This document shows, one piece after another, positions 4,464-33,196 of a stretch of 34,841 bases of DNA. How positions within the stretch are numbered: the first letter of the stretch is position 1; every line of letters begins with the position of its first letter. Both the position numbers and the translations under genes were made by a program. Source of the DNA: Actinomycetes bacterium (lineage in GTDB: Bacteria; Actinomycetota; UBA4738); contig JAJYHN010000183.1 of the NCBI GenBank assembly GCA_021784765.1, positions 1-34,841 on the forward strand, given 5' to 3'. The notes under the pieces are model-generated. The model ran no database searches and was not told where the DNA came from. It saw only the letters and a program-made list of their open reading frames with translations.

Positions 4464-4520
4464 GCGGGCGCGACGGGGCGGTCGTCGGTCCTTGGTCCTT
4501 GGTGGAGGTCCGGTGCGCCG

Positions 4521-5354: not shown

Positions 5355-5375
5355 GAAATGGCGCGATGAAGGATA

Positions 5376-5387
5376 TGGTCTAGGCCA
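5376..5387. promoter_or_regulatory. Candidate GntR/HutC-type operator immediately before ATG of the oxidoreductase
   Basis: TGGTCTAGGCCA, a one-mismatch palindrome resembling the TGGTCTAGACCA core known for HutC/DasR-class regulators. Confidence 0.45.
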
Positions 5388-7811: not shown

Positions 7812-7924
7812 GCACCATGCCCGTCCGGGCGCGGGTTCGTCCTCGGCCCCTCCGTTCCCGCTCGGGGGGAGATCGGTGATCGGCGTGCGCCGACGATCTG
7901 TCCGGCCGTCGCTCGCTGCTCCAC

Positions 7925-8337: not shown

Positions 8338-8371
8338 GCCGGCACCCGTCGCCTCGCCACGTCAGCGTCCA

Positions 8372-8908: not shown

Positions 8909-8989
8909 CGGATCGCCCCTAGGGATCGGACGGAGCGCGCCCAGGCCCGCCGGACGGCCTGGCGGACGAGCGTGCGGACGAGCAAGGCC

Positions 8990-10198: not shown

Positions 10199-10271
10199 GC
10201 TCGCCTCCAAGACTTGGCATTGGGATTGGGGAGTCCACCAGGGGCACGTGGCGTCCTCAGTCACACCGCCG

Positions 10272-11216
10272 CTAGGTCGCTGTGGCCCGCAGCCACCCCT
10301 CGAACCGGGGGTCGGCGGCCGCCGAGCGCAGGCGCTCGAAGTGCTCGGCGGCGTACGCGACGAAGTCGAAGTCGAGCTGGGAGATGCCCTGCTGCACGAC
10401 GCCCCACATCGCCTCGCGGAAGTCCGACATGAACCGCATGAGCCGCAGCGACGCCAGGTCGCGGGCCCGCACCTCCCCGAAGGTCGCGGCGAGCAGTGCC
10501 TCGTCGTGCTCGATCCCGAACCCGTGGTTGACGGAGAGGTTCGCGAGGTCGAAGAAGCGGTCGCCCATGCCCGCGTACTCCCAGTCGACGATGCGAACCG
10601 CGTGGCCGTCGTCGAGGAAGTTCGCGTTCAGCAGGTCGTTGTGGCAGAAGGCCTCCGGCTGCGGGCCGCGAGCCGCCCGGATGCGCTCGGCGACCTCCAT
10701 CGCCAGGTCGGCGCCGTCCGGGATCGGCACGCCGCGGGCCGCAGCGGTCGCGCGGTAGTCGCGCACGATGCGGTGGGCGTCGAAACGGCCGGGGACGGGG
10801 GGCGCCGCGTGGATGGCGCCGAGCGCGGCGGCCACGCGGGCGATCGTCGCGGGCTCGCGCATCGTCTCGGGCGGGATCGGCACGCCCTGGATGAAGCGGG
10901 TGACGAGCGACCCGTCGACGAAGGCGACCACCTCCGGGCCGACGCCGACCGAGGCCGCCATGCGGGTCGCGGCCGCCTCGGCCTCGCGGTCGACCCCGAG
11001 GAGCTCGGTATCGCGCCCGCCGATCCGAACGACGACGGGGATCGGCTCGCCCTGGACGGCGACCTTGAAGTTGTGGTTGGTGATGCCTCCGCCCAGGGGC
11101 TCGATCGATGTGGGGCGGTCGGGCCAGAGGGCGGTGGCGATGGCGCCGGCGGTGGCGAGTGGGTCGGCCGGTGCCGGCGGTGCGGAGGGCGCGGGCGGCG
11201 TGGACATGCGACGCAT
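10272..11216 (-). CDS. Choline/ethanolamine kinase-like phosphotransferase (APH fold)
   Basis: IEPLGGGITNHNFKV, FCHNDLLNANFLDDG, VRIVDWEYAGMGDRFFDLANLSVNHGF motifs. Confidence 0.88.
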   Translation of the reverse strand: MRRMSTPPAPSAPPAPADPLATAGAIATALWPDRPTSIEPLGGGITNHNFKVAVQGEPIPVVVRIGGRDTELLGVDREAEAAATRMAASVGVGPEVVAFVDGSLVTRFIQGVPIPPETMREPATIARVAAALGAIHAAPPVPGRFDAHRIVRDYRATAAARGVPIPDGADLAMEVAERIRAARGPQPEAFCHNDLLNANFLDDGHAVRIVDWEYAGMGDRFFDLANLSVNHGFGIEHDEALLAATFGEVRARDLASLRLMRFMSDFREAMWGVVQQGISQLDFDFVAYAAEHFERLRSAAADPRFEGWLRATAT

Positions 11217-11278: not shown

Positions 11279-11857
11279 ATGTCGGTTCCGGAAGAGGTAG
11301 CGGTCGCGGATCTCGTGATCCGCCGGCTTCTCGAGGACGACGCGCCGGCCCTGCAGGCTGCGGTCCTCGAGAGCCTCGAGCATCTGCGGCCCTGGATGCC
11401 GTGGGTGGCGTTCGAGCCCCTGTCGATCGACGAGCGGCGGGAGCTCCTCGCCCGCTGGGGCCGGGAGTGGCAGGAGGGAACGCAGTACGGCTTCGGCGTG
11501 TTCCTGGGGGAGCAGCTGGCCGGCGTGTTCGGCCTCCACCGTAGGATCGGGCCTGGCGGCCTGGAGCTCGGTTACTGGATCCATCGGCGCCACACCGGTC
11601 GCGGCTACGCGACCCAGGCGGCGGCGGCTCTGACGTCGGTCGCGTTCGGCCTTCCCGACACCACGCATGTCGAGATCCACCACGACAAGGCCAACCTCGC
11701 CAGCGGGCGAATCCCCGAGAAGCTCGGGTTCCGACTCGTGCGGGAGGAGTCCGACGGGATCGAGGCGCCGGGCGAGACGGGCGTGAGCTGCATCTGGCGA
11801 GTGGAGCGCGACGCGTGGCGCCCGGACGCGGAGGCCCGGACCCTCACGCCACGCTGA
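11279..11857 (+). CDS. GNAT N-acetyltransferase (RimJ/RimL type)
   Basis: VIRRLLEDDAPALQAAVLES...ELGYWIHRRHTGRGYATQAAAALTSVAF...HHDKANLASGRIPEKLGFRLV; start set at MSVPEEV, in frame with ORF 11108-11857. Confidence 0.9.
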   Translation: MSVPEEVAVADLVIRRLLEDDAPALQAAVLESLEHLRPWMPWVAFEPLSIDERRELLARWGREWQEGTQYGFGVFLGEQLAGVFGLHRRIGPGGLELGYWIHRRHTGRGYATQAAAALTSVAFGLPDTTHVEIHHDKANLASGRIPEKLGFRLVREESDGIEAPGETGVSCIWRVERDAWRPDAEARTLTPR

Positions 11858-11901
11858 ACGAGCGCCCGGGCGTGTCGGCGCCGGACGGTACGATCGCAGC
11901 A

Positions 11902-14900
11902 GTGGAATCCTCCCCCCTGGCTCGGTTCTCCGAGGTCGCCCGTGGTTGGTTCGAGGGAGCGTTCGCCGGTCCGACGCCGGCGCAGGGCGAGGCGTGGGGC
12001 GCGATCGCCTCCGGCGAGGACGTCCTGGTCGTCGCGCCGACCGGATCCGGCAAGACCCTGGCGGCGTTCCTCTGGGCGCTGGATCGCCTCTCGGCCGAGG
12101 GACGGGCCGAGGACCCGATGCGGCGGCTCCGGGTCCTGTACGTCTCGCCCCTGAAGGCGCTCGCCGTCGACGTCGAGCGGAACCTGCGGGTGCCGCTCGC
12201 CGGGATGCGGGCCGTGGCCGGGCGGCTCGGAGTCGCTGCGCCGGAGGTCGAGGTCTCCATCCGCACGGGGGACACGCCGGGGGAGGAACGGAGACGGTTC
12301 GCGCGACGGCCGCCCGACATCCTCATCACGACGCCCGAGTCGCTGTTCCTGCTGCTGACCTCGCAGGCGCGGGAGGCGCTGGCCGGCCTCCGGACGGTGA
12401 TCGTCGACGAGGTCCACGCGGTCGCGGGGACCAAGCGGGGGGCGCACCTCGCGCTCAGCCTGGAGCGGCTCGACGCGCTGCTGGGGTCGCGGGCCCAGCG
12501 CATCGGGCTCTCGGCGACGGTGCGGCCTCCCGAGGAGGTCGCCCGATTCCTGGGGGGCGCCGGACGGCGGGTGACGGTGGTGGCGCCCCCGTCGCCCAAG
12601 CGCCTGGACCTGTCGGTGGTCGTGCCGGTCGATGACATGGCGGCCCTGGGCGAACCCGCCGACGAGATCGCCGGGGGGCCGGCGGTCGTGCCCGAGCCCC
12701 GGGCGAGCATCTGGCCGCACGTCGAGGAGCGGCTGGTCGAGCTCGTGCGCGCCCACCGCGCGACCCTGGTGTTCGCGAACTCGCGGCGCCTCGCCGAGCG
12801 CCTGTGCTCCCGCATCAACGAGCTTGCCGGCGAGGAGATCGCGCGGGCCCACCACGGCTCGGTCAGCCGTGAGCAGCGGGCGCTGATCGAGGAGGACCTC
12901 AAGGCCGGGCGGCTCCCGTGCGTGGTCGCGACCAGCTCGTTGGAGCTCGGAATCGACATGGGCGCGATCGACCTGGTGATCCAGGTGGAGTCCCCGCCGT
13001 CGGTGGCGAGCGGCCTGCAGCGGATCGGCCGGGCCGGCCACGAGGTCGGCGCGGTCAGCCGGGGGATCGTCTTCCCGAAGTTCCGCGGCGACCTCGTCGA
13101 GTCGGCGGTGGTCGTCGAGCGGATGCGCGCCGGGCTGATCGAGGAGGTCCGCGTCCCGCGCAACCCGCTCGACGTGCTCGCCCAGCACGTCGTGTCGATG
13201 GCCGCCATGGACGAGTGGACGCTCGACCGGCTCGAGGAGGTCGTGCGCCGGGCGGCGCCGTTCGCCGACCTCCCGCGCGGCGCCCTCGAGGGTGTGCTCG
13301 ACATGCTGGCGGGCCGCTATCCCTCCGACGAGTTCGCCGAGCTCCGCCCGCGCATCGTCTGGGACCGGGTCGAGGGGACGATCCGCGGCCGTCCCGGCGC
13401 CCAGCGGCTGGCCGTCACCTCCGGGGGCACGATCCCCGATCGGGGGCTGTTCGGCGTGTACCTCGCCGGGGATCGGCCGACCCGGGTCGGCGAGCTGGAC
13501 GAGGAGATGGTCTACGAATCGCGGGTCGGGGACGTCTTCGTGCTCGGCGCCTCGAGCTGGCGGATCGAGGACATCACCCACGATCGGGTCCTGGTGACCC
13601 CGGCGCCCGGCCAGCCGGGCGTGATGCCCTTCTGGCACGGGGACGCGCCGGGGCGCCCGGCCGAGCTCGGCCGGGCCGTCGGGGCGTTCGTCCGTGAGGT
13701 CTCGCGCCTGGACGAGGAGCGGCGGCGCGGGCGGCTGGCGGCAGCCGGACTCGACGAGCTGGCCGCGACGAACCTCTCCGCCTACCTCGACGAGCAGCGC
13801 GAGGCGACCGGCGTGCTGCCCGACGACCGCACGATCGTGCTCGAGCGCTTCCGCGACGACCTCGGGGACTGGCGCGTCTGCATCCACTCCCCGTTCGGCG
13901 CGCCGGTGCACGCGCCCTGGGCGCAGGCGATCGAGGCGCGGGTGCGGGAGCGACTCGGCCTGGAGGCCCAGACGATGTACTCCGACGACGGCATCGTCGT
14001 GCGGCTGCCGGAGGCCGACGAGGCGCCGCCCTCGGACTCGATCCTGTTCGGGCCCGAGGAGATCGAGGACCTTGTGGTCGCCCACCTCGGCAGCTCCGCC
14101 CTGTTCGCCAGCCGCTTTCGCGAGAGCGCGGCCCGCGCGCTGCTGCTGCCGCGGCGGCGGCCGGGGCAGCGGACGCCCCTCTGGCAGCAGCGCCAGCGGA
14201 GCGCCACGCTGCTGCAGGTCGCATCGAAGTACGGCTCGTTCCCGATCGTGCTGGAGACCTACCGGGAATGCCTGCAGGACGTGTTCGACCTTCCGGCCCT
14301 GCGGGAGCTGATGGCCGGGGTCCAGCGGCGGGAGGTGCGGGTGGTCGAGGTCGACACGACCTCGCCGTCCCCGTTCGCCCGCTCGCTGCTGTTCGGCTAC
14401 ATCGCGATCTTCATGTACGAGGGCGACGCGCCGCTCGCCGAGCGGCGGGCGCAGGCGCTGTCGCTCGACCGAGCCGTCCTGGCCGAGCTGCTCGGGCGCG
14501 AGGAGCTGCGCGAGCTGATCGACCCGGCGGCGCTGGCCGACCTGGAGCTCGAGCTGCAGCTGCTGGCCGAGGGTCGCCGGGCCCGGGGGCCCGACGAGCT
14601 GCACGACGCCCTGCGGCGGCTGGGGGACCTCGCGACCGCCGAGGCGCTGGCGCGCTCGGCCGACGCCGCCGGGACGCCCGGCTGGCTTGCCGAGCTCGAA
14701 GCCGGGCGCCGGGCGATCCGCGTCCGCGTCGCCGGTCAGGAGCGTTGGGCCGCGATCGAGGACGCCGGGAGGCTGCGGGACGCCCTCGGGACGGCGCCGC
14801 CCCCCGGCGTGCCGGCGGCATTCCTGGAGGCGGTCGCCGACCCGCTGGGGGACCTGATCGGACGCTACGCGAGGACGCATGGGCCGTTCGTGGCCGCGGA

Positions 14901-16335
14901 CGCCGCGGCGCGCCTCGGCCTCGGCGTCGCGGTGGTCGAGCAGACGCTCCGGCGGCTCGAGCGGGAGGGGCGGGCCGTCGAGGGCGAGTTCCGCCCGGGC
15001 GGGGAGGGCCGCGAGTGGGTCGACGTCGAGGTGCTCCGCGCCCTGCGGCGGCGCTCGCTGGCCGCCTACCGCCGCGAGGTCGAGCCGGTGCCCCAGCGGG
15101 CGCTCGGCCGGTTCCTCCCCGCGTGGCACGGGCTCGGGCCGCACGCGCCCTCGCGGTTCGACCTCGACGCGCTCTACCGCGCGATCGAGCAGCTGCAGGG
15201 GGTGCCGCTGCCGGCCTCGGCGCTGGAGCGCCAGATCCTGGCCCCGCGCCTGCCCGGGTACGCGCCGGCCGCGCTCGACGAGCTCTGCACGTCCGGCGAG
15301 GTCGTGTGGGCCGGGTCCGGCGCCCTCGGCAGCGACGACGGCTGGGTCGTGCTGGCCCTGGCCGACCGGGCGCCGCTGCTGCTGCCCGAGCCGGCGCCGG
15401 TCGAGCTGTCGCCCGCGGGCGAGGCCGTCATGGCGGTCCTGGCCGAGCGCGGGGCGCTGTTCTTCCGGCAGGTCGTCGACGCGGTCCGCGGCGAGCGCGA
15501 CGCCGAGGTGCTGCTCGCCCTCTGGGAGCTCGTCTGGGCCGGACACGCGACGAACGACACCCTCGCGCCGCTGCGGGCGCTGGTGTCGGGGGCGGGGCGG
15601 CGCCGTCCCGGCCGCGCTGCGGCCGCGCGGCGGCCCGGCGCCCGCCCGAGGTTCCCGACGCGCTCCGGTCCGCCCTCGGCGGCCGGACGGTGGAGCCTGC
15701 TGCCGGCCCGGGAGCCGGAGCCGACCCGGCGCCTGCACGCGGTCGCGGAGCAGCTGCTTGCCCGCCACGGCGTCCTGACGCGCGGCGCCGTCGCGGCCGA
15801 GCGCGTGGCGGGCGGGTTCGCGGCGCTCTATCCGGTGCTGCGGGCGTTCGAGGAGTCGGCCCGCTGCCGTCGCGGGTACTTCGTGGAAGGGCTCGGCGGC
15901 GCGCAGTTCGCGCAGGCCGGCGCCGTCGATCGTCTGCGGGCGATGGGGGAGCCGGCCGCGCCGCCGGCGACGCTGGTCCTGGCGGCCGCCGACCCGGCCA
16001 ACCCGTACGGCGCGGCCCTCCCGTGGCCGGACCGCGACGCGGAGCGCCCGGGCCACCGCCCGGGGAGGAAGGCCGGGGCGCTCGTGGCGCTGGTGGACGG
16101 CGAGCTCGCGCTGTACGTCGAGCGGGGCGGGCGGACGCTGCTCACCTACGCCGACGACCTCGAGACGCTGCAGCCGGCGGCCGACGCGCTGGCGCTCGCC
16201 GCGAGGGACGGCGCGCTCGGGACGCTCACGGTCGAACGCGCCGACGGGGTGGAGGTGTTCGACACGCCCCTCGCGCGGGCCCTCGCCGAGGCCGGGTTCC
16301 GTCCCACCGCGCGCGGGCTGCGGCTGCGCGGGTAG
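11902..16335 (+). CDS. lhr: Lhr-type ATP-dependent DEAD/DEAH helicase
   Basis: VVAPTGSGKTLAAFLWALDRL, VDEVHAVAGTKRGAHLALSLERL, GLSATVRPPEEVARFLGG, LVFANSRRLAERLCSRINEL, VATSSLELGIDMGAIDLVIQVESPPSVASGLQRIGRAGH; long Lhr-type C-terminal extension. GTG start inferred; the ORF extends upstream to 11815. Confidence 0.95.
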   Translation: MESSPLARFSEVARGWFEGAFAGPTPAQGEAWGAIASGEDVLVVAPTGSGKTLAAFLWALDRLSAEGRAEDPMRRLRVLYVSPLKALAVDVERNLRVPLAGMRAVAGRLGVAAPEVEVSIRTGDTPGEERRRFARRPPDILITTPESLFLLLTSQAREALAGLRTVIVDEVHAVAGTKRGAHLALSLERLDALLGSRAQRIGLSATVRPPEEVARFLGGAGRRVTVVAPPSPKRLDLSVVVPVDDMAALGEPADEIAGGPAVVPEPRASIWPHVEERLVELVRAHRATLVFANSRRLAERLCSRINELAGEEIARAHHGSVSREQRALIEEDLKAGRLPCVVATSSLELGIDMGAIDLVIQVESPPSVASGLQRIGRAGHEVGAVSRGIVFPKFRGDLVESAVVVERMRAGLIEEVRVPRNPLDVLAQHVVSMAAMDEWTLDRLEEVVRRAAPFADLPRGALEGVLDMLAGRYPSDEFAELRPRIVWDRVEGTIRGRPGAQRLAVTSGGTIPDRGLFGVYLAGDRPTRVGELDEEMVYESRVGDVFVLGASSWRIEDITHDRVLVTPAPGQPGVMPFWHGDAPGRPAELGRAVGAFVREVSRLDEERRRGRLAAAGLDELAATNLSAYLDEQREATGVLPDDRTIVLERFRDDLGDWRVCIHSPFGAPVHAPWAQAIEARVRERLGLEAQTMYSDDGIVVRLPEADEAPPSDSILFGPEEIEDLVVAHLGSSALFASRFRESAARALLLPRRRPGQRTPLWQQRQRSATLLQVASKYGSFPIVLETYRECLQDVFDLPALRELMAGVQRREVRVVEVDTTSPSPFARSLLFGYIAIFMYEGDAPLAERRAQALSLDRAVLAELLGREELRELIDPAALADLELELQLLAEGRRARGPDELHDALRRLGDLATAEALARSADAAGTPGWLAELEAGRRAIRVRVAGQERWAAIEDAGRLRDALGTAPPPGVPAAFLEAVADPLGDLIGRYARTHGPFVAADAAARLGLGVAVVEQTLRRLEREGRAVEGEFRPGGEGREWVDVEVLRALRRRSLAAYRREVEPVPQRALGRFLPAWHGLGPHAPSRFDLDALYRAIEQLQGVPLPASALERQILAPRLPGYAPAALDELCTSGEVVWAGSGALGSDDGWVVLALADRAPLLLPEPAPVELSPAGEAVMAVLAERGALFFRQVVDAVRGERDAEVLLALWELVWAGHATNDTLAPLRALVSGAGRRRPGRAAAARRPGARPRFPTRSGPPSAAGRWSLLPAREPEPTRRLHAVAEQLLARHGVLTRGAVAAERVAGGFAALYPVLRAFEESARCRRGYFVEGLGGAQFAQAGAVDRLRAMGEPAAPPATLVLAAADPANPYGAALPWPDRDAERPGHRPGRKAGALVALVDGELALYVERGGRTLLTYADDLETLQPAADALALAARDGALGTLTVERADGVEVFDTPLARALAEAGFRPTARGLRLRG

Positions 16336-19738: not shown

Positions 19739-20419
19739 CTACGACGTGGGGCGCGACGAGGTCGGCGCCACGAGGAACGTCCAGACGTCCCAGGCGGCGT
19801 GGCTCACCACGAGCGTTCCCATCGGGGCCCCGAGCGCGTCCATCGCCACCCAGAAGGCGCCGGCGACGCTCGCCGCGCCGACCAGCGTGAGGTTACCGGT
19901 CACCGCGTGGGCCCCGCCGTAGGCGGCCGCGGCGGCCGCGGCGCCGCGCCAGGTCCCGTACCGCTGCCGCAGGCGCTTGCCGACCAACCCGCGCCAGAAC
20001 AGCTCCTCGGCGGGGCCGATGATCAGGGCGAGCCGCGCGGCGAGCTCGGCGTCGGGCCGCAGGCCGCGCAGTGCGTACATCGCCTGGATCTCATCGTCCC
20101 CCTTCGGCATGGCGCGCCGGGCGAGGCGGTCCCCGACCTGGAAGACCCCGTGCAGGGCCGCGGCCGAGGCCAGCCCGGCCGCGACGTCGCGAGGGCGGAT
20201 CCTCGTCCGCCGGAGCTCTGGCTCGGCGGCGAGCGCGAGCGATCCGAGCGCCAGGCCGGTCCGCGTCATCCGCTGCCAGAAGCGGTCCTTCGGGCCGCGG
20301 AACACGAGGGCGAAGGCGGCGTACGCGGCGCCCAGCCCGGCGGCCAGCACCCTCTCGTCGCCGGGCGCGCTCTCGTCCGCAGGCCTGGACGGGCCACCCG
20401 GTGCGGTGCCGTCCCCCAT
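19739..20419 (-). CDS. CPBP-family intramembrane metalloprotease-like protein
   Basis: MGDGTAPGG...; motifs EELFWRG, GGAHAVTGN, SHAAWDVW; start overlaps the upstream stop as TGATG. Confidence 0.8.
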   Translation of the reverse strand: MGDGTAPGGPSRPADESAPGDERVLAAGLGAAYAAFALVFRGPKDRFWQRMTRTGLALGSLALAAEPELRRTRIRPRDVAAGLASAAALHGVFQVGDRLARRAMPKGDDEIQAMYALRGLRPDAELAARLALIIGPAEELFWRGLVGKRLRQRYGTWRGAAAAAAAYGGAHAVTGNLTLVGAASVAGAFWVAMDALGAPMGTLVVSHAAWDVWTFLVAPTSSRPTS

Positions 20420-22431
20420 CAGCGCACGACCGCGGCCAGCACGAGCCCGGCCACCAGCAGGTATCCGAACGCGGCGTGCAGCTCCGCGGTCTGCAGGTCG
20501 ATCATCGCGATCGCGCGCTGCTGCCCGGTCGAGCCGAGCTCGGCCGAGCGGATCAGTCGAACCAGCAGCGGCAGGGAGAGGATCGCGAGCAGGCTCTCCG
20601 ACGGCAGGGCGCCGGCCACCACGGACAGCCCGAGCGCGATGTAGGCGCCGACCACCAGCGACACGTAGAGCCAGTGCGCCACCCGCTTCCCCGCCCTGAT
20701 CGAGAGCGTCGAGCTGCCCATGCGGGCGTCGTCCCCGACGTCCCGCCACTCGTTCCCGTGCAGGATCGCCGCCACCAGCAGCCCGACCGGGATCGACAGC
20801 ACGAGGGCGCGCCAGGTGAAGCTCCCGGCGACCACGTAGTAGCCGCCGACCACCATCAGCGGACCCATCAAGAGGAAAACGAGCGGGAGGCCGAGCGCCC
20901 GGAACTTGTACTGCAGCGGCGGCGCCGTGTAGCCCCAGCCACCGACGAGCCCGAGGATGCCCAGCGCCACGACGGGCCAGCCACGCGCGAGCGTCATCGC
21001 CACGCCGAGCGCGGCCGCGACCCCGAACGCGGTCACCGCCGCCGCGAACGCCTCGCGTTCGGTGAGCCGGCCCTTCAGCAGCGCGTGGCTTGCGCGCGGC
21101 GAGGTGATGGTGTCGACGCCCTTGCGGACGTCGTAGATCTCGTTCAGGACGTTGGTCCCGATGTGCAGCAGCACCGAGGCGACGATCGCCATCAGGAACA
21201 GCGGCCACGAGAAGCGGCGGTCGATCGCGGCGAGCGCGCCGGCGGCGGCGACCGGCACCGACGAGGCCGTGAAGCTGAAGGGTCGCGCGATCTCGTACCA
21301 GGCGGCGGCACGGCGCCGGACCCGCTCGAAGGGGGACAGGCGCTGCGCGTCGAGTGCGGCGCGCGTGGCCTCCACGCCGACCCCGGCCTGGGTCGGCGAG
21401 ACCAGCACGGGCGCGCCGGCCGTCCCGGTCCCGTACGCGACGGCCGCCTCGATCGTCTCGCGGACGTGGTCCTCCTGCTGCAGCACCGGCTGCAGCACCG
21501 GCCGGTCCATGCCGGCCTGGCGGAAGGCGTCGGCCCGCGCGGCCACCTCGTCGCGCGTGCCGCAGAGCATGAACGCGTCGAGCAGCTCGTCGGGGATGAT
21601 CTGAGCGGCGCTGTGGTAGTCCTCGGCGCGCCAGGCAACGGCGATGCGGTCGCGGAGCTCCGGCTCCAGGCCGGCGCGGCGCATCGCGACGTCGGACTGC
21701 ACGCCCATCATGTAGATCACGAACGGCTCGCGCTTCGCGCGGTTCAGCGCCTCGCGCCGCGTCCGGTCGACGAGCGTGAGCAGGTAGCCCGACACGCCGA
21801 TGTCGCGCGGATCGCGGCCGGCGTCCCGCGCGGCATCGTGGATCACCCGGAGCATCGTGACCAGCGAGGGGATCGACTCGGCCGGCCGGGCCATGTACCC
21901 GTCGGCCGTCTCGCCGCAGATCCGCAGCATCGGGCTCCGCCAGCCCGCGATGTAGATCGGCACGCGGTGGACCGGCGGGAACATCGGCTCCACCGGCGGC
22001 ACGCCCTCGAACGGGGAGGGCACGCGCTCGCCGGCCCAGAGCTTGCGGCAGACCTCGATGCACGCGCGGACGCCATCGGCGCCCGTGTCGGGGGAGTAGG
22101 GGATGCCCATCTGCGCCAGGCGGAACGGCAATCCGGTCCCGAGGCCCAGGATGACCCGCTCGGGAGCCATCTCGTCGAGCGCGCTGATCGTCATGGCCAC
22201 CACCACGGGATGGCGGGTGTTCGGGTTCAGCGCCGCCAGCGCGACCCTGATGTCGGGGACCTGCGAGGCGATCGCCGACGCGTAGGTGACGGCGTCGCGC
22301 TCGAAGTACGAGTCGTGGATCCACACCGAGTCGATGCCGGCGCGCCGGGCGCGATCCGACCACGCGACGACGTCGGCCACGTTGCCCCGCGCGGCGAGTC
22401 CGAACCCGACCGGCCTCGAGAGCTCCGTCAC
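20419..22431 (-). CDS. Fusion protein: N-terminal luciferase-like monooxygenase domain + C-terminal UbiA/MenA-type prenyltransferase
   Basis: LLM: FGLAARGNVADVVAWSDRARRAGIDSVWIHDSYFERDAVTYASAIASQ...RVILGLGTG...LWAGERV. UbiA: ARPFSFTASSVPVAAAGALAA, NEIYDVRKGVDT, YTAPPLQYKFRALG, GNEWRDVGDDARMGSSTL. One uninterrupted frame from GTG 22431 (AGGAGG upstream). Confidence 0.9.
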   Translation of the reverse strand: MTELSRPVGFGLAARGNVADVVAWSDRARRAGIDSVWIHDSYFERDAVTYASAIASQVPDIRVALAALNPNTRHPVVVAMTISALDEMAPERVILGLGTGLPFRLAQMGIPYSPDTGADGVRACIEVCRKLWAGERVPSPFEGVPPVEPMFPPVHRVPIYIAGWRSPMLRICGETADGYMARPAESIPSLVTMLRVIHDAARDAGRDPRDIGVSGYLLTLVDRTRREALNRAKREPFVIYMMGVQSDVAMRRAGLEPELRDRIAVAWRAEDYHSAAQIIPDELLDAFMLCGTRDEVAARADAFRQAGMDRPVLQPVLQQEDHVRETIEAAVAYGTGTAGAPVLVSPTQAGVGVEATRAALDAQRLSPFERVRRRAAAWYEIARPFSFTASSVPVAAAGALAAIDRRFSWPLFLMAIVASVLLHIGTNVLNEIYDVRKGVDTITSPRASHALLKGRLTEREAFAAAVTAFGVAAALGVAMTLARGWPVVALGILGLVGGWGYTAPPLQYKFRALGLPLVFLLMGPLMVVGGYYVVAGSFTWRALVLSIPVGLLVAAILHGNEWRDVGDDARMGSSTLSIRAGKRVAHWLYVSLVVGAYIALGLSVVAGALPSESLLAILSLPLLVRLIRSAELGSTGQQRAIAMIDLQTAELHAAFGYLLVAGLVLAAVVR

Positions 22432-22465
22432 GTCGCCTCCTTCCGACGACCCGGGGGCCGCGCGC

Positions 22466-23179
22466 TCACGAAGGCTCGCGAGCCGCGACGAACAGCGTAA
22501 CCATCCCGCCGGTGAGCGACCGAGCGGTGGCCGTGCGGAACCCGGCCCGCCGCAGCATCGTGCATACCTGCATGGGCGGTGGGAGCTGCCCGAGCGACCC
22601 GACCAGGTACCGGTAGGCGTCGCGCTTCCCGAACAGGCCCCCGAGCGCCGGCGCCACCGTCCCGAAGTACGCGTCGAACGCCCGGCGCACGAGCGCCTGC
22701 GGCGGCTCGGTGATGTCGACGAGCGCGGCGCGGGCCCCGGGTCGCAGCACCCGCGCGAGCTCCCCGAAGGCCGCCGGCAGGTCGTCGAGGTTGCGAAGGA
22801 CGAACCCGCTGACGGCGCCGTCGAAGGCATCATCGCGAAACGGCAGGCGAAAGGCGCTCCCCTGCACGAGGCACACCCGTCCGTCCAGGCGGCCCCGAGC
22901 GACAGCGAGCATCCGCGGGCTGACGTCGACCCCGGTCACCCGGGCCCGGTCGGCGACCGTCTCGCCCATCTCGCCGGTGCCGCAGCCGAGGTCCAGGACC
23001 CGCGCCCCCGCCGCGACGCCCGCCGCGCGCGCGGCCGCCCGCCGCCACACGCGGTCGAGCCCCAGCGAGAGCAGGCCGTTCAGCAGGTCGTAGCGTTCGA
23101 CGATGTCGTCGAACATCGCGCGCACGCGCGCCTCGGGAGGCGCGCTGCGGCGGGGCCGGGGGTGGCTCGCTTCGCTCAC
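22466..23179 (-). CDS. Demethylmenaquinone/ubiquinone-type C-methyltransferase (UbiE/MenG family)
   Basis: MFDDIVERYDLLNGLLSLGLDRVWRR, VLDLGCGTGEMGE, GFVLRNLDDLPAAFGELARVLRPGARAALVDITEP. Confidence 0.9.
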   Translation of the reverse strand: MSEASHPRPRRSAPPEARVRAMFDDIVERYDLLNGLLSLGLDRVWRRAAARAAGVAAGARVLDLGCGTGEMGETVADRARVTGVDVSPRMLAVARGRLDGRVCLVQGSAFRLPFRDDAFDGAVSGFVLRNLDDLPAAFGELARVLRPGARAALVDITEPPQALVRRAFDAYFGTVAPALGGLFGKRDAYRYLVGSLGQLPPPMQVCTMLRRAGFRTATARSLTGGMVTLFVAAREPS

Positions 23180-23260: not shown

Positions 23261-23899
23261 GTGCAGATCGCGAACGAGTTCCGGGTCGAGGCGCCGATCG
23301 AGCGCGTGTGGGCCCACCTGCTCGACGTCGAGCGCGTGGCGCCCTGTATGCCCGGCGCCCAGCTCACCGAGGTCGTCGACGACCGGACGTGGAAGGGCAG
23401 GGCGAACGTGAAGCTCGGGCCGGTGAGCCTGTCGTTCGCCGGCACCCTCGTGATGGCGGAACGCGACGAGTCGGTCCACCGCGTCGTGCTGAAGGCAGAG
23501 GGGCGCGAGCAGCGGGGGAAGGGGGCGGCCTCGGCGACGATCACCTCGGTGATGCAGCAGGACGGGGACGGCACCCGGGTCGCCATCGACACCGACCTCA
23601 CGATCACGGGCGCGGTCGCGCAGTACGGCCGCGGCATGATCCAGGACATCTCCGCGCGGCTCACCCAGCAGTTCGCCGAGTGCCTGCGGGCGACGATCGC
23701 CGCCGAGGAGGCGGCGCCCGTGCCCGTCGAGGCCGTTCCACCGGGCGGCGAGGCTGCGCCCGCCGTCCCGCTCGCCCCCGCTCCGCCCCAGCCGGTGGCC
23801 GCCCCGGCCGCCGTGGGTGGCGTCCGCCTCGGCCTGTGGGCGCTCTGGCGCGCGCTCGTCCGCCTTCTGCGGCGGCTGTTCGGCGGCGGGCGAGGCTGA
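23261..23899 (+). CDS. coxG: CoxG-family SRPBCC protein with Pro/Ala linker and C-terminal amphipathic tail
   Basis: GTG after AGGAGG: VQIANEFRVEAPIERVWAHLLDVERVAPCMPGAQL...GRANVKLGPVSLSFAGTL...GRGMIQDISARLTQQFAECL; tail GVRLGLWALWRALVRLLRRLF. Confidence 0.88.
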   Translation: MQIANEFRVEAPIERVWAHLLDVERVAPCMPGAQLTEVVDDRTWKGRANVKLGPVSLSFAGTLVMAERDESVHRVVLKAEGREQRGKGAASATITSVMQQDGDGTRVAIDTDLTITGAVAQYGRGMIQDISARLTQQFAECLRATIAAEEAAPVPVEAVPPGGEAAPAVPLAPAPPQPVAAPAAVGGVRLGLWALWRALVRLLRRLFGGGRG

Positions 23900-23900
23900 G

Positions 23901-24316: not shown

Positions 24317-25534
24317 CTACCCCGCGCTGATGGCCTCGGCGAGCTCCTCCAGGCTCTCGAGGTTGTGACCGGGCAGGAACACGTCGACGTGGGGGAGCGC
24401 GGCCGCCATGCCCCGGGCGAGCGGCTCGTAGCGGGGACTGCCCTTCAGCGGGTTCACCCAGATCAGGCGGTGGGTCAGGCGCTGCAGCCGCGCCGTCTGG
24501 CGCGCCAGCAGGTCGGGGTCGCCCCAGTCCAGCCCGTCCGAGCAGACGACGACGACCGACCCGCGCAGGGCCGCCCGCGGGGCCCACTCGTCCAGCAGCG
24601 CCTTCAGCGACTCGCCGATCCGCGTGCCGCCCTCCCAGTCGTTGACGGCGTCGCCGACCGCGGCGAGCGCCGCGTCGGGGTCGCGCGTGCGCAGTGCGCG
24701 CGTGATGCGCGTGAGCCGAGTGCCGAAGCAGAACACCTCGACCTTGCGCCCGGCCCAGGCCGCGGCGTGGGCGAACTCGACGAGCGGGCGGGCGTAGGGC
24801 GCCATCGAGCCCGAGACGTCGAGGATCAGCACCAGCGGGCGCGGCCGAACGCGCCGGTCGCGCCATGCCCGCCGGAACGGCTCGCCCTGGGTTCGGAGCG
24901 ACCTTCGCAGCGTGGCCCGGAAGTCGAACCGCGTCCCGTACGGCGAGGGTCGGGTCCGACGGGACGAGCGGAAGGGGGTCAGCAGCGCCAGTCGCCTGAC
25001 CAGGGCGTAGACCGCGTGCCGCTCCTCCTCGGTGAGATCGGCGAAGTCGCGCCGGCGCAGCCGCTCGGTGCCGCTCGCGATCATGCGGACGGCGGCCCTC
25101 TCCTCGCCGGGCTCTCCCTCGCCCTCCTCGGGCGACCACTGAGCGGACGGGGGCGCCTCCTCCTCGGGCGGGACCTCGGGCTGCTCCCCCTCGTCCTCGC
25201 CGGGCTCACCCTCGCCCTCCTCGCGGGCGAGCTCCCCCCCGGGCGCCTCCTCGGCTGGGGGCGGGGAAATGAGGCCCTCGCGGAAGTACCGGTCGAACAG
25301 CCCGTCGAGCAACGGCAGGTCCTCGGGCCGGGAGATCAGCGTGGCCCGGGCCGCCATCCGCAGGTCGACGGCGTCGAACGGGTCCAGCGCGGTGGCCGCC
25401 CGGCAGAACGACAGCACCCGGCCGGTCCCGACGTCCAGCCCGCGCGCGCGGAGCAGCCGGCCAAAGCCGACAAGGCGATGGAGGATCTCGGCCTCGGCGG
25501 CCGGCTGGGGGACGGGCGTCACGGTGGCCGACAC
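24317..25534 (-). CDS. coxE: CoxE-like VWA-domain protein with acidic low-complexity insert
   Basis: MIDAS LDVSGSMAPYARPLVEFAHAA, WEGGTRIGESLKALLDEW, VVVVCSDGLDWGDPDLLARQTARLQRLTHRLIWVNPLKG. Confidence 0.9.
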   Translation of the reverse strand: MSATVTPVPQPAAEAEILHRLVGFGRLLRARGLDVGTGRVLSFCRAATALDPFDAVDLRMAARATLISRPEDLPLLDGLFDRYFREGLISPPPAEEAPGGELAREEGEGEPGEDEGEQPEVPPEEEAPPSAQWSPEEGEGEPGEERAAVRMIASGTERLRRRDFADLTEEERHAVYALVRRLALLTPFRSSRRTRPSPYGTRFDFRATLRRSLRTQGEPFRRAWRDRRVRPRPLVLILDVSGSMAPYARPLVEFAHAAAWAGRKVEVFCFGTRLTRITRALRTRDPDAALAAVGDAVNDWEGGTRIGESLKALLDEWAPRAALRGSVVVVCSDGLDWGDPDLLARQTARLQRLTHRLIWVNPLKGSPRYEPLARGMAAALPHVDVFLPGHNLESLEELAEAISAG

Positions 25535-25547
25535 GGCCCGGACCGGG

Positions 25548-26441
25548 CTACTCGGCGGCGCCGACGACGCGGGCGATCTCGGCCCGCACCATCTCGAGGT
25601 CGTCGTGGTCCTTCAGCACGGTCCCGAGCGTGGCCGACGCGGCCCCATCGTCGAGGAACGAGACGCCGAGGAACGCGAGTGCGTGCGCCCAGTCGATGGC
25701 CTCCGCGACGCCCGGTCGCTTGGCCACGTCCATGGTTCGCAGGTGCTGGACGGCCTGGGCCACCTGTCGCGCGAGCGCAGCCGGTACCTCGGGCGCCCGC
25801 ACGCCGATGATCTCCAGCTCGCGCTCGAGGGTCGGGTGGTCGATCCAGTGGTACAGGCAGCGGCGCTTCAGCGCGTCGTGCAGCTCGCGGGTCCGGTTCG
25901 AGGTGATGATCACCGCCGGCGGCCGCTCGGCGGCGATCCGGCCCACCTCGGGCACCGTCACGGCGAACTCCGACAGCACCTCGAGCAGGAACGCCTCGAA
26001 CTCGTCGTCGGCGCGGTCGAGCTCGTCGACCAGCAGGACCGCGCCCGCCCCGGCGCGTAGCGCCGCGAGCAGCGGGCGCTCGACCAGGAACTCCTCCCCG
26101 AACAGGTCGCCGACGGATGCGGCCGGCGTTCCGGCCTCGCCGACCTGCAGGGTCCGGACGGCGATCAGCTGGCGCGAGTAGTCCCACTCGTACAGGGCTT
26201 GGCTGGCGTCGATGCCCTCGTAGCACTGCAGGCGGATCAGGCGCCGGCCGAGGGTCTTCGCCAGGGCCTTGGCCACCTCGGTCTTGCCGACCCCGGCCTC
26301 GCCCTCCAGCAGGAGCGGCTTGTCCAGCGAGATCGCCAGGTAGATGGCCGTGGCCAGGGCGCGGTCGGCCAGGTAGGCCTCTCCCCGAAGGGCCCGGGTG
26401 AGCTCCTCGACCGATGCGAACGGAAGGTCCTCGCGCGTCAC
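25548..26441 (-). CDS. coxD: MoxR-type AAA+ ATPase, CoxD-like
   Basis: Walker A LEGEAGVGKTEVAKALA, Walker B VLLVDELDRADDEFEAFLLEVLSE, ITSNRTRELHDALKRRCLYHWIDHPT. Confidence 0.93.
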   Translation of the reverse strand: MTREDLPFASVEELTRALRGEAYLADRALATAIYLAISLDKPLLLEGEAGVGKTEVAKALAKTLGRRLIRLQCYEGIDASQALYEWDYSRQLIAVRTLQVGEAGTPAASVGDLFGEEFLVERPLLAALRAGAGAVLLVDELDRADDEFEAFLLEVLSEFAVTVPEVGRIAAERPPAVIITSNRTRELHDALKRRCLYHWIDHPTLERELEIIGVRAPEVPAALARQVAQAVQHLRTMDVAKRPGVAEAIDWAHALAFLGVSFLDDGAASATLGTVLKDHDDLEMVRAEIARVVGAAE

Positions 26442-26479
26442 GCAGACATGGTACGGGAGCGCGGCGGTAGGCTGCGGGT

Positions 26480-26824
26480 GTGGGCTCCCGGAGGCGGTTC
26501 GAGATGCTGGCCGCGCAGGCGCTCGACGGGCTGCCCGCCTGGGTCAAGGAGCGGCTCGAGAACGTCGAGGTGCTGGTCGAGGACGACCCGCCACGGGACG
26601 AGCCCGATCTCCTCGGCTTGTACGAGGGGGTGCCGCTCACCGAGCGAGCCGACTACTACGGCGTGCTGCCCGACCGCATCACGCTGTTCCGCCGCCCCAT
26701 CGAGGCCGAGGCGGGTGGCGACGAGCGCCGGCTGCGCGAGGTGGTGCGCGACACCGTGATCCACGAGCTCGGGCACTTCTTCGGCATCTCCGACGAGCGG
26801 CTCCGCGAGCTCGGCCGGGACTGA
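26480..26824 (+). CDS. Small zincin-like metallopeptidase family protein
   Basis: RRFEMLAAQALDGLPAWVKERLENVEVLVEDDP..., VIHELGHFFGISDERLRELG (HExxHxxG). Confidence 0.88.
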   Translation: MGSRRRFEMLAAQALDGLPAWVKERLENVEVLVEDDPPRDEPDLLGLYEGVPLTERADYYGVLPDRITLFRRPIEAEAGGDERRLREVVRDTVIHELGHFFGISDERLRELGRD

Positions 26825-26858
26825 ACGGGAGGGGTCCCGCGCCGGCCCCGGCGGTCGG

Positions 26859-27917
26859 CTACGGGACGTCGTCCGGACGGCCACCGGCCGCCGGGGGGTG
26901 GGCCGCGCCGTGGCCATTCGACGAGAGCGCGAGCGCGCCGCGAAGGGCCAGGGCGGCGTCCTCCGGCGCGACGGTGTTGATCATCATGCCGCTGCCGAGC
27001 TCGAACCCGGCGGGGGTGGTGAGCTTCGGCAGCAGCCGGACGTGCCAGCGAAACAGCCGGCGGTTCACGTCCTCGGCCGGTCCAGAGTGCACCACCAGGT
27101 TGAAGTCCGGGTCGTCGACGGCAATGCGCAGGGCGTGCAACACGTCCCGCAGAAGCGCGGCGAGGTCCCCGGCATCCTCGTCGGGCAGCTGCCCGAACGA
27201 GGCCTGGTGGAAGGTCGGCACGATCCACGTCTCGAACGGCGTTCCCCCGGCGAACGGTGCGAACGCGGTGAAGCGCCCCCGCTCGGCGATCATCCGCTCG
27301 CCGGCATCCCGCTCGGCCCGCACCAGGTCGTCGTAGAGCCCGCGTCCCTGGTCGTCGAAATACCGGACGGCGGTGTCGAAGGCGCGGAGCCAGGCCGGCG
27401 GATAGACGGGGACGGCGACGATCTGCGAGTGAGCGTGGGTGAGCGAGGTGCCGGCCATCGGCCCGAAGTTCTTGAACACGACGATCGCGCGCGCCCACGG
27501 GCGGCGCCGCAGGTCGCGGTAGCGGTCGCGCCAGGTGAGCAGCACCTCCACGGTGTCGCGCTCCGCCATCTCGTCGAAGCGGGCGTCGTGGCGCTGGGAC
27601 TCGATCACGACCTCGTGCGCCCCGCGGCCGCCCATCTCGCGGAGCATCGTGCGCCCGTTCCGGTGGTTGTGCCCGTTCGCCCCGACGGCCTCGTAGCGGT
27701 TAGGGACCACCCGGACGCGCCAGCGGCCGTCGGGGCCGGATACCCTGGCAAGCTCGGGCGGGGTCATCGACTCGTTGCCGGGGCAGAACGGGCATGCGGG
27801 GTCGTGCGCCGGCAGCTGCGGCCGGGCCGGCCGCTCGGGAAGCTGTGGCCGGGCGGCCCGCCTGGGGGCGAGGATCACCCACTCGTTGGTGGTCGGGTCT
27901 TGCCGGAGGGTGGACAT
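26859..27917 (-). CDS. galT: Galactose-1-phosphate uridylyltransferase
   Basis: LRQDPTTNEWVILAPRRAARP, CPFCPGNE, VFKNFGPMAGTSLTHAHSQIVAVP, FRWHVRLLPKLTTPAGFELGSGMMINTV. Confidence 0.93.
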   Translation of the reverse strand: MSTLRQDPTTNEWVILAPRRAARPQLPERPARPQLPAHDPACPFCPGNESMTPPELARVSGPDGRWRVRVVPNRYEAVGANGHNHRNGRTMLREMGGRGAHEVVIESQRHDARFDEMAERDTVEVLLTWRDRYRDLRRRPWARAIVVFKNFGPMAGTSLTHAHSQIVAVPVYPPAWLRAFDTAVRYFDDQGRGLYDDLVRAERDAGERMIAERGRFTAFAPFAGGTPFETWIVPTFHQASFGQLPDEDAGDLAALLRDVLHALRIAVDDPDFNLVVHSGPAEDVNRRLFRWHVRLLPKLTTPAGFELGSGMMINTVAPEDAALALRGALALSSNGHGAAHPPAAGGRPDDVP

Positions 27918-27961
27918 CGACGCGATCGCTTCGCCGTCACGGACGGGCCTCTCCCCCTCAA

Positions 27962-28016
27962 CTTCGGGCCGGCTGCCCGCGGGATTGAGGAATCCGGCCC
28001 GAATCCCGGCCCGAAG
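27962..28016. repeat. Three-copy inverted/direct repeat cluster upstream of galT
   Basis: CTTCGGGCCGG (27962-27972), CCGGCCCGAA (27994-28003), CCGGCCCGAAG (28006-28016). Confidence 0.7.
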
Positions 28017-28075
28017 GCGGACCGGACCCCGGAGGCCGCCGTGCGGGATCGGCCCCCGGGGTCCCCCGGCCCGGC

Positions 28076-28933
28076 CTACCTGGCGAGCGCCTCCTCGAGA
28101 GCTCGGCGGACCAGCACCTTCGACAGCTCCCGGCGGTACTCGGCGCTGCCGTTGGTGTCGCTCGGGGGGCTCGTTCCCTCCGGGGCGTGGCCGGCGGCGG
28201 CGGCAAGGGCGCCCGGCTCGGCGGCGGCGCCCGCCAGGGCGGCCTCGACGCCCTCCGCACGCATCGGCATGAGCCCCATGTTCGTCAGGCCGATCGCCGC
28301 CCGGGCCACGCTGCCGTTGCTGCGCTCCACCACGGCCGCGACGCCCACGATCGCCCAGTCGATCGCCCGCCGGTGGAACTTCTGGTAGGACCAGCCCGTG
28401 CCGGTCGAGAGCTTCGGAACGCGGACGGCCGTCAGCACGTCCTGCGGTCCGAGGTCGGTTTCGAACAGGCCCTTGAAGAAGTCCCGCGCCGCGACCGTCC
28501 GCTCGCCGGCCGGCCCGCGGACGACCATCTGGGCGTCGAGGGCGAGGAGCACCGTGGGCGGGTCCGAGGCCGGGTCGCCGTGGGCGACCGAGCCGCCGAA
28601 CGTGCCGCGGTGGCGCACCTGCGGGTCGCCGACGTGGCCGGCCGCGTGTGCGACCAGCGGGTTGTGCGTCGCGAGGACCTCGCTCGCGGCAACCTCGGCC
28701 ATCCGGGTCGTCGCACCGATCTCGATCTGATCGCCGGCCTCGCGGACGTAGGCGAGGTCGTCGAGGCGGTCGACGTCGACCAGCACCGACGGGCGGGCCA
28801 GGCGCAGGCGCATCAGCGGCAGCAGCGAGTGGCCGCCGGCCACGAGCTTGGCGTCCTCGCCGTGCTCGCCGAGCAGCGCGACCGCGTGGTCGACGGATTC
28901 GGCGCGCACGTACTCGAACGGGGCCGGGATCAT
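28076..28933 (-). CDS. coxM: CoxM-type FAD-binding subunit of molybdenum hydroxylase
   Basis: [48 protein letters not shown]...RHRGTFGGSVAHGDPASDPP; ATG overlaps the coxL stop (ATGA). Confidence 0.93.
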   Translation of the reverse strand: MIPAPFEYVRAESVDHAVALLGEHGEDAKLVAGGHSLLPLMRLRLARPSVLVDVDRLDDLAYVREAGDQIEIGATTRMAEVAASEVLATHNPLVAHAAGHVGDPQVRHRGTFGGSVAHGDPASDPPTVLLALDAQMVVRGPAGERTVAARDFFKGLFETDLGPQDVLTAVRVPKLSTGTGWSYQKFHRRAIDWAIVGVAAVVERSNGSVARAAIGLTNMGLMPMRAEGVEAALAGAAAEPGALAAAAGHAPEGTSPPSDTNGSAEYRRELSKVLVRRALEEALAR

Positions 28934-31302
28934 GCGGCACCTCCCTTGGCCTGCTGGATGGCTCTCCACACGCGCTCGGGGGTCGCCGGCCGCGCCATCT
29001 CGGTGACCCCGAGGTGGGAGAGCGCGTCGACCACCGCGTTGATGACCGCCGGCGGCGAGGCGATCGTGCCGGTCTCGCCGACGCCCTTCACGCCGAGCTC
29101 GTTCGTCGTCGACGGCGTGACGGTCTTGTCGATCCGGATCGAGGGCACGTCGGAGGCGGCCGGCACCTCGTAGTTGGTGAGCGAGCTCGTGAGCAGGTCG
29201 CCGTTCTCGTCGTAGACGGCCTCCTCGAAGAGCGCCTCGGCGATCCCCTGGATCACGCCGCCGGCGACCTGGCCGTCGACGATCTGCGGGTTGATGATCG
29301 TGCCGACGTCGTCGACGGCCGCATAGCGCAGCACGTCGACCTGGCCGGTCTCGGTGTCGACCTCGACCGCGCAGATGTGGGCCCCGTAGGGATAGACGAA
29401 GTTCTCGGGGTCGTAGACGGCGCTCGCGTCGAGCTCCGGCTCCACGCCCTCGGGCAGGTTGTGCGCCGTCCAGGCCGAGAAGGCGACCTCGGGGATCGTC
29501 CTCGCCCGGTCCGGGGCCCCCTTCACCGAGAACCTGCCCCGCACGTACTCGAGGTCGTCCTCGGACACCTCGAGCTCGTGGGCCGCGATCTTTCGCGCCT
29601 TCTCGACGATCCGGTCGGCCGCTCGGTGCACCGCGACGCCGCCCACCGAGAGGCTCCGGCTGCCGTAGGTGTCCATGCCGAGCGGCGCGAGCGCCGTGTC
29701 GCCGTGCACGACCTCGATGTCGTCCACCGGGATGCCGAGGTCGTCGGACAGGATCTGGGAGAACGTCGTCGCGTGGCCCTGCCCGTGCGGGGACACGCCG
29801 ACGAACGCCGTCACCTTGCCGGTCGGCAGCACGCGGATCCGCGCGGCGTCCCATCCGCCGGCCGCGTACTTCAGGCTCCCGAGAACGCGGGACGGCGCCA
29901 GGCCGCACATCTCGATGTAGGTCGAGAACCCGATGCCGATCTGCTTCGCGTCGCCGCGCTCGCGGCGGGCCCGCTGCTCGGCCCGCAGCTCCTCGTAGCC
30001 GACGAGCTCGAGGGCCTTGTCGAGCGTCCCGTTGTAGTGGCCCGAGTCGACGGTGAGCCCGCCGGGAGACGGGATCGGGCCGTCGGACTCGGGGAGGAAG
30101 TTCATCCGGCGGATCTCGACCGGGTCCCTGCCCACCCGCCGCGCGAGCGCGTCGATCGCCCGCTCGATCGCGTAGGTCGCCTCGGGACGGCCGGCGCCCC
30201 GGTAGGCGTCGGTCGGCGTGGTGTTCGTGAACACCCCCGTGCACTCGAAGTGATACGCCTCGCCGCCGTAGGGACCGCAGAACAGGAACGCGCCGAGCAG
30301 GGGCACGCCCGGCCCCACCAGCAGCAGGTAGGCGCCCATGTTCGCAATCAGCCTGGTGCGGTACCCGCGGATCCTGCCATCCTCGTCGGCCGCGAGCTCG
30401 ATCTCCTGGATCTGGTCGCGGGCGTGGTGGGTCGTGAGGACGTCGCTCGACCGGTCACCGGTCCACTTGACCGGGCGGCCGGTCCGCCTGGCGAGCACCA
30501 GCGCCAGCGACTCCTCGGGGGAGACGCGGATCTTCGAGCCGAAGCCCCCGCCGACGTTCGGCGCCCGGACCCGCAGCTTGGACTCCGGGATGCCGAGCAC
30601 GAACGCGGCCAGGACGACCCGCACGATGTGGGGGATCTGGGTCGAGGTCGTGAGCGTGTACTCGCCCATCGCCGGCGCGTACTCGGCGAGGAGGGCCCGA
30701 GGCTCCATCGCGGCGGGGATCTGCCGCTGGACCACGTACCGCTCCTTCACCACGACCGGCGCCGTGGCGAACACCGCGTCGACGTCGCCGTTGGTGAGCG
30801 TCCACGTGTACGAGGCGTTCGTGCCGAGGTCCGCGTGGACGAGGTCGGCCCCGTCCTTCAGCGCTTCCTCCATGTCCAGGACCACCGGCAGCGGGTCGTA
30901 CTCGGCGACGACGGCCTCAGCGCCGTCCTCCGCGGCCGCCCGGGATTCGGCGAGCACGACGGCCACGCCCTCGCCCTGGAACCGGACCTCGTCGGTCGCG
31001 AGCGGGTACATCGGGGGGTTCTTCAGATCGTCGGTGACCGGCCAGGCGGTGGGAAGGGGACCGGCCCACTCGCCCGCGAGGTCCCGGCCGCCGAACGCCG
31101 CCACGACGCCCGGGACCTGCAGCGCCGGTGAGACGTCGACGCTCGTGATCCTCGCGTGCGCGAAGGGGCTGAGGACAAGCTTCATCCACAGCATGCCGGG
31201 GGCGGCGAGGTCGTCGGAGTACCGCGCCTGCCCCGTGATGAGCTCCGGGTCCTCCTTGCGGCGGACCTCGGTGCCGACGACGCGCTCTGCGGTCTGCGCC
31301 AT
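28930..31302 (-). CDS. coxL: CoxL-like molybdenum hydroxylase large subunit, form II type (AYRGAGR)
   Basis: [44 protein letters not shown] (30187-30207 encodes AYRGAGR), [22 protein letters not shown]. Confidence 0.93.
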
Positions 31303-31888: not shown

Positions 31889-33196
31889 TCAGCTGACGCT
31901 CGGGCTGAGCGGGACCAGGGCGGGGGCGGGGCTTGGGGGTTGGACGTTCCACTGAAGGACGGTCGGGCGGCAGCCGGTGAGCCGGGGCAGGTCGGCGGTG
32001 GAGAAGACGCTGACGAGGTCGATGTTTCCGCCGGGGAAGGTCTCGGTGACGACGGTGTCCCCGGCGATGTAGACGTGGTTGGCGATGCTGACCGCGACGC
32101 CCGTGCGGATGTCGGCGAGCACCCCGGAGCCCGGGCCGCCGTTCTGGTACCAGCCGGCGAACCCGTTGTCGGACAGGTACGGCCAGTCCTCGAGGTAGGT
32201 GTTGGTCGCCTGCAAGAGGGCTCCTGGCCTTGTCGCCGCCTGCGCCTCGATCGTCTGGAAGTCCTCGGTGTTCCAGAGCGTCCCCGCGGGGGTCACCGAG
32301 AGCACCCGGGGGTTCTCGACCTGCCCGAGCCCCGCGGGTAGCGGCACCCGCTGCAGCGTGTGCAGGTCGAGGGCGACCAGGGAGTAGCCCTGGGGGGACT
32401 GCCAGTCCCCCGAGGGGTTGTCGACGAGAAGGAGCCGGCCGTCCGCGATCTCGGGAAAGGCGATGTCTCGCCAGGGCACCAGCCGGTTCACCCGGGTGCG
32501 CACGTCCACCACGTGCACCTCGAGGCTCCGGTCGGGCCGGGACTGCGTCCAGGCCACGTAGCCGTCCCCCGCGGAGGGCGTGATCGCCATCAGCTCCTGG
32601 GCGATCCCGGGGTTCGCCCGGCCGATCACCCAGGACCGCCGGGTGCGCAGGTTCACCTCGACCATCCACCACCTGGTGGGGAAGTCCCCGCCGAAGACGC
32701 CGACCCGGAAGATCACGTAGCCGTCGGTCTCGGCCACCTCCTGGACGAACGTGCCGTCGTTCCGGTGGCGGTAGGAGTACAGCGGTACGATGCGGTCGGA
32801 TCCCGGCCGAAGAAGTCCGAGCCCGTGCCCGTTCGCAGACATGGTGGTGACGAGCATCATGCCGTCGGGAAGGATCCCGTTGAACCCTCCCTCCGCTTGC
32901 CCGCCGGAGGTCCCGGCAGGCCAGTGCACCCGGGTGCGGACGAGCAGGGCGCGCAGCGACGCGGGGACCCGCCGCAGCATGCAGAAGCCCTCAAGCGTTA
33001 CGCCAGGCACTCGCGACGGCGAGGGGGCCGGGGTGGGCGAGCGCGAGGGGACAGGGTGGGCGGCATGGGTCGCCGAGACGCACCCGCTGGCGAGCACCAG
33101 CACGCTCGCTAGAGCTGGAGAGAGCCACCTTCGCCAGGCCCGAAGCGTGGCGGAGGCGCCCGCCCGGCCACCTCCGCCGCTCGTCACTTTCCGCAC
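31889..33196 (-). CDS. Secreted lipoprotein, probable beta-propeller-like repeats
   Basis: GTG start; lipobox VLVLASGC, Pro/Ser-rich linker, then blocks such as [24 protein letters not shown] and [30 protein letters not shown]. Confidence 0.75.

Follow-up and report, generated by a model that had tools for sequence, protein, structure and literature searches.

What is made by a protein that joins a luciferase-like (LLM) domain to a UbiA-type prenyltransferase in one polypeptide, and does it act in the synthesis of a respiratory quinone? The question is raised by one gene in a 34,841-nucleotide stretch of DNA from an Actinomycetes bacterium (contig JAJYHN010000183.1; hereafter, the window). 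In 2026, a survey spanning 26,264 genomes reported that many Chloroflexota lack all known quinone pathways and suggested the existence of undiscovered quinones (PMC13386864). On balance, we favor the reading that the two-domain fusion enzyme acts in respiratory-quinone biosynthesis as part of an LLM–UbiA–CPBP module, and that in Chloroflexota and archaea lacking Men and futalosine genes it would probably belong to an undescribed route. This reading is drawn from sequence, predicted structure and genome comparison, with the following features of the window at its center.

20419–22431, minus strand: LLM–UbiA fusion gene, 670 aa, GTG start (translation, Pfam, 70 in-frame homologous loci)
22436–22444, minus strand: Shine-Dalgarno-like GGAAGGAGG preceding the GTG start (sequence)
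21505–22386, minus strand: LLM domain (Bac_luciferase, residues 16–309), a Mer-like TIM barrel (Pfam and Foldseek)
21343–21408, minus strand: disordered inter-domain linker, residues 342–363 (AlphaFold pLDDT < 50; length varies among homologues)
20551–21258, minus strand: UbiA domain core, residues 392–627 (Pfam; nearest solved structure UBIAD1, 8djk)
21112–21144, minus strand: first Asp-rich motif, NEIYDVRKGVD, residues 430–440 (sequence)
20728–20754, minus strand: second Asp-rich motif, NEWRDVGDD, residues 560–568 (sequence)
19739–20419, minus strand: CPBP/Rce1-like membrane protein, 226 aa, conserved partner of the fusion (Pfam PF02517, 3.8e-9)
22466–23179, minus strand: UbiE/MenG quinone C-methyltransferase, 237 aa (TIGR01934, 186 bits, above the cut-off of 158; PF01209, 9.8e-46)

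The gene is a single frame from a GTG start at 22431 to a TGA stop at 20421–20419, and its translation contains no internal stops, in exact agreement with the strand, coordinates and 670 codons of the original prediction. A Pfam search recovered the predicted pair of domains, both far above their cut-offs (Bac_luciferase, 4.5e-47, 161 bits; UbiA, 1.2e-30, 107 bits versus a cut-off of 34.2). The two Asp-rich motifs, also predicted, are present with their key residues invariant: N430, E431, D434, R436, G438 and D440 of the first and N560, W562, R563, D564 and D568 of the second are identical across 49/49 aligned fusions. An AlphaFold model computed from an alignment of 49 fusions displays two confident domains (mean pLDDT 86.8) with pLDDT < 50 at residues 342–363. 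The span between the two domain matches ranges from 27 to 92 aa across homologues, the behavior expected of a linker. The domain border, originally placed at 21303, is thus better set at residues ~340–366 (about 21414–21334) by low pLDDT and length variation. The pTM of the model is only 0.58, so the relative placement of the two domains is not given by it.

A survey of relatives, as the original prediction had proposed, established that the fusion is genuine. Using tblastn with a frame-by-frame re-check, the fusion was found in frame at 70 of 74 loci (genome-scan loci, the window and later loci), the remainder being three contig-end truncations and one frameshift; an assembly chimera or lost stop is thereby ruled out. 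The scan covered 84,980 genomes and yielded 68 loci, nearly all labeled Chloroflexi/Chloroflexota, some Anaerolineae and a few Actinobacteria, and all were fusions except one on an archaeal contig (L092). Rather than always being two genes, nearly all bacterial homologues are fused, while archaea have separate adjacent genes. One Chloroflexota genome (G952), considered as an unfused case, proved to hold a frameshift or deletion within a fusion; at its locus (L177, 3646–5548), LLM and UbiA lie in different frames and the UbiA start is missing, as would result from decay of the gene or an error in the sequence. Among the matches listed, plasmid records are LLM-only and none covers 80% of the query.

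Homologues in the alignment are 53–72% identical, and the window protein is 69–72% identical to the fusions of a genome of the same family (G004) and one of the same phylum (G065). In a UbiA-domain tree, the fusions form a single clade (100/99), within which the window, G004, G065 and one Actinomycetota-labeled locus group inside Chloroflexota diversity. This nesting suggests that the Actinomycetota group, including the window's fusion, arose by transfer. Misbinning of the window contig is unsupported, its tetranucleotide profile having its nearest neighbors among the contigs binned with it. The fusion is undescribed in the literature searched, the coverage of which was incomplete, and domain databases may already contain it without a name. 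The component families are known; what is new, as far as could be tested, is their fusion in a module with CPBP and the near mutual exclusion between this module and Men genes.

The most constant partner of the fusion is the CPBP/Rce1-like protein, a point missed by the original prediction along with the near-exclusion of the Men pathway and the MenA-like but sub-cut-off character of the UbiA domain. By gene calling, CPBP occurs at 59/69 fusion loci; in 57 of these 59 it is the immediate downstream gene on the same strand, usually <100 bases away, and most loci without it stop at or near a contig edge. In the window, the CPBP start overlaps the stop codon of the fusion. The EExxxR motif and two histidines are well preserved among 60 homologues (E115, E116, R120 and H148, 100%; H184, 98%; numbering follows the shorter gene call). 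The same trio occurs unfused in archaea. At L092, UbiA (7980–8891), CPBP (8920–9543) and LLM (9858–10832) sit between sdhB-like and V-ATPase genes, and L169 and L170 carry a tightly packed CPBP–UbiA–LLM order that differs from the UbiA–CPBP–LLM order of L092. The three proteins are therefore linked in three arrangements, of which the fusion is one, and LLM, UbiA and CPBP make up a conserved module of three parts, the first two being fused in bacteria. A Thaumarchaeota-wide UbiA–LLM operon was not found: an LLM match is present in 17/151 genomes, and among inspected loci the trio occurs only at L092, L169 and L170. Around the L169 trio (4515–10164) lie a geranylgeranyl-reductase-like flavoprotein, a methyltransferase and a 6-pyruvoyl-tetrahydropterin-synthase-like gene, and a Pyr_redox_2 flavoprotein and a DsrE-like gene occur near the module at L170 (6346–8330) and L092 (5744–7658), the latter gene being called by Pfam in L170 and by eye in L092.

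UbiE/MenG adjoins the fusion at no fewer than seven loci in three arrangements, the window included, and exceeds the TIGR01934 cut-off in all three fusion-adjacent cases tested. The predicted UbiE/MenG neighbor of the window is thus confirmed, and quinone prenylation, also proposed originally, remains the best context, given these neighbors and the archaeal unfused versions near quinone-type oxidoreductases. ABC transporter, GltX and other gene clusters lie near the fusion in subsets of loci. Elsewhere in the window, carbon-monoxide-dehydrogenase-type genes occupy 24317–31302 on the minus strand, among them:

24317–25534, minus strand: CoxE-type VWA protein
25548–26441, minus strand: MoxR-like AAA ATPase
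28930–31302, minus strand: CoxL-like molybdopterin subunit

A CoxG-like gene may sit at about 23300–23900 on the plus strand. The window also encodes a very long helicase-like protein of about 1500 aa resembling the Lhr type (11545–16335, plus strand) and a predicted exported protein of 435 aa with no Pfam matches (31889–33196, minus strand).

Genomes that carry the module mostly lack the marker genes of known quinone routes. MqnA/D of the futalosine pathway was found in 0/23 module genomes (22 with the fusion and one archaeon with separate genes), and MenB passed its cut-off in two: G065 and the genome to which the window belongs (G000). Of 400 Chloroflexota genomes, 50 encode the fusion and 152 encode MenB (E ≤ 1e-90); MenB is present in 2/50 fusion carriers versus 150/350 others (Fisher p = 3.8e-9, uncorrected for kinship). 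Comparison of the lists by eye placed both genes together only in G794 and G871, where 19 such genomes were expected. Scavenging of quinones could also account for the missing Men and Mqn genes. A complex-I-type 49-kDa subunit was identified in 22/23 module genomes, some matches being of a shorter, split type that may be hydrogenase-like. Two genomes (G396 and G413) encode a CtaD/CoxA cytochrome oxidase together with complex-I-like 49-kDa subunits, and their sole UbiA proteins are a CtaA–CtaB heme synthase and the fusion. A respiratory chain with such an oxidase normally needs a quinone, which makes the fusion the foremost prenyltransferase candidate in these two genomes. Their CtaA–CtaB heme A/O synthase (L161, L162), encoded beside cytochrome oxidase subunit I, is a second natural fusion of the UbiA family.

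Several observations count against the favored reading: most fusion genomes encode at least one additional UbiA protein, UbiE adjoins only a minority of fusions, and we know of no assigned role for CPBP in quinone synthesis. G004 has a second, unfused UbiA soon after CPBP, followed by an aldo/keto reductase and a uroporphyrinogen-decarboxylase-like gene (L024, 5292–7208), and related unfused UbiAs occur in the same-family genomes G002, G005 and G007. In the window's genome, menB and menA are adjacent on contig C210, so part of the Men pathway, at least, exists there, and G065 likewise has a real menB beside menA. The module may therefore yield an additional quinone or some other product in the window's genome, or be redundant there, and with MenB in G000, G065 and 2/50 Chloroflexota carriers it is not always a replacement for Men. 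The broader idea, that LLM–UbiA–CPBP forms the core of a third, F420-dependent respiratory-quinone route, possibly to a new quinone type, in some archaea and in large lineages within the Chloroflexota that seem quinone-less by all known pathway markers, is put forward tentatively.

The strongest alternative, which we still regard as somewhat unlikely, is that the prenylated aromatic product is not a respiratory quinone but, for example, a pigment, a membrane antioxidant or a secondary metabolite, which the LLM domain would tailor as a reductase. Secondary metabolism often employs LLM enzymes, and this proposal would fit the coexistence of menB and menA with the fusion in G000 and G065, the unmet MenA cut-offs and the absence of an adjoining UbiE at most loci. 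However, it sits poorly with the wide occurrence of the fusion in Chloroflexota in near-exclusion with MenB, its status as the only non-heme UbiA in two respiring genomes, the placement of the archaeal copies amid respiratory genes and the recurrence of UbiE neighbors.

We then asked how close the UbiA domain is to MenA. Its nearest solved structure is UBIAD1 (8djk, 6.7e-23) and its best curated matches are DHNA prenyltransferases, yet it falls below every MenA cut-off (TIGR00751, 91.9 < 102.15; NF004749, 164.7 < 277; NF004751, 164.6 < 264), and by these curated thresholds the domain is MenA-like but not MenA. The MenA of the window's own genome exceeds the TIGR00751 and NF004751 cut-offs and sits beside menB, ruling out the fusion as that genome's MenA; in the tree, the MenA proteins of G000 and G065 fall in a different, supported clade. 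We consider it quite improbable that the fusion serves ordinary menaquinone synthesis, with the UbiA domain as a divergent MenA acting on DHNA and the LLM domain as a redox helper or as part of UBIAD1-type salvage of scavenged naphthoquinones. The MenA-type motifs and the nearest curated and structural relatives speak for such a role, and imported menadiol could be the acceptor where Men genes are absent; but most carriers have neither MenB nor MqnA/D as a source of DHNA, and G000 and G065 already own a distinct MenA.

Whether compared by curated family, by sequence or by structure, the LLM domain comes closest to F420-dependent Mer enzymes (Mer-type methylene-tetrahydropterin reductases), and the top Foldseek matches are all Mer (TMt 0.84–0.90). 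Its scores are nonetheless below the Mer equivalog cut-offs (PRK02271, 143 < 276; TIGR03555, 120 < 349). In 49/49 fusions, the catalytic Glu6 of Mer (PMC11094777) corresponds to Gly or, when aligned by hand two residues over, to Ala, and the nearby strand has no acidic residue. Asp96 is replaced by Leu101 in the window (Leu in 45/49), and position C of the pterin site, a carboxamide in Mer, by Arg182 (Arg in 48/49); Mer residue 178 reads Asn in the PDB chain and Gln178 in PMC11094777. The sole similar pterin-site residue is at the Phe233 position, which is Tyr240 in all fusions. At the Gly61–Val62 site of Mer, a non-prolyl cis-peptide after strand 3, nearly all fusions have Gly-Ala and the window has Ala66–Ala67, residues compatible with such a bond as judged from sequence only. 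Identity with Mer is therefore ruled out by scores and changed catalytic residues, and a C1 enzyme of this type fused to UbiA by chance without a shared pathway, despite Mer providing the best curated and structural matches, is very improbable given the sub-cut-off scores, the loss of Glu6, Asp96 and the position-C carboxamide, and the pairing of unfused LLM and UbiA in archaea as well.

F420 ligase, the only F420 marker searched, is encoded in 23/23 module genomes versus 3/14 controls. Together with the nearest structures, which are F420 enzymes, this favors F420 over FMN; the original prediction of an F420- or flavin-dependent step is thus narrowed toward F420. The LLM domain is probably an F420-dependent enzyme of the Mer fold.

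Under the favored reading of a quinone-biosynthesis module, the UbiA domain, whose two Asp motifs are intact, would most likely move a polyprenyl chain onto a hydroxylated aromatic acceptor. Joined to it by a flexible linker, the LLM domain would most likely carry out F420-dependent hydride transfer to the same ring or a precursor, which would either ready the acceptor for prenylation or reduce the product once prenylated. UbiE would then C-methylate the ring, and CPBP may have a supporting or processing role. The module offers a concrete candidate prenyltransferase, fused to a redox enzyme and sharing an operon with a membrane partner, for Chloroflexota without a known quinone pathway, and thereby makes the question of their missing route testable. 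If the proposal is true, bacterial F420 would gain a role in respiratory-cofactor synthesis.

Comparison with known systems places the module near several of them. With MenA and UBIAD1, its closest curated and solved relatives, the UbiA domain shares the fold and both Asp-rich motifs; it differs from MenA in its sub-cut-off scores, separate supported clade and N-terminal LLM domain, and in host genomes mostly without menB or mqnA/D. With Mer, the LLM domain has in common the barrel, F420-enzyme neighbors and small residues at the cis-peptide site, whereas it lacks counterparts of Glu6 and Asp96, has Arg at position C, scores below the Mer cut-offs and is joined to a membrane domain. The classical and futalosine menaquinone pathways likewise use UbiA-family prenylation and UbiE/MenG methylation, but 23/23 module genomes are without MqnA/D and 21/23 without MenB, and LLM and CPBP are added. 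A precedent for a recent quinone route built from UbiA and UbiE homologues is the Mpq (methyl-plastoquinone) pathway of Nitrospirota, as cited in PMC13386864; in contrast to that system, the UbiE of the window, at 158, falls short of the MpqE cut-off of 335, and the module contains LLM and CPBP partners, neither of which is mentioned for Mpq in the accessible part of the paper.
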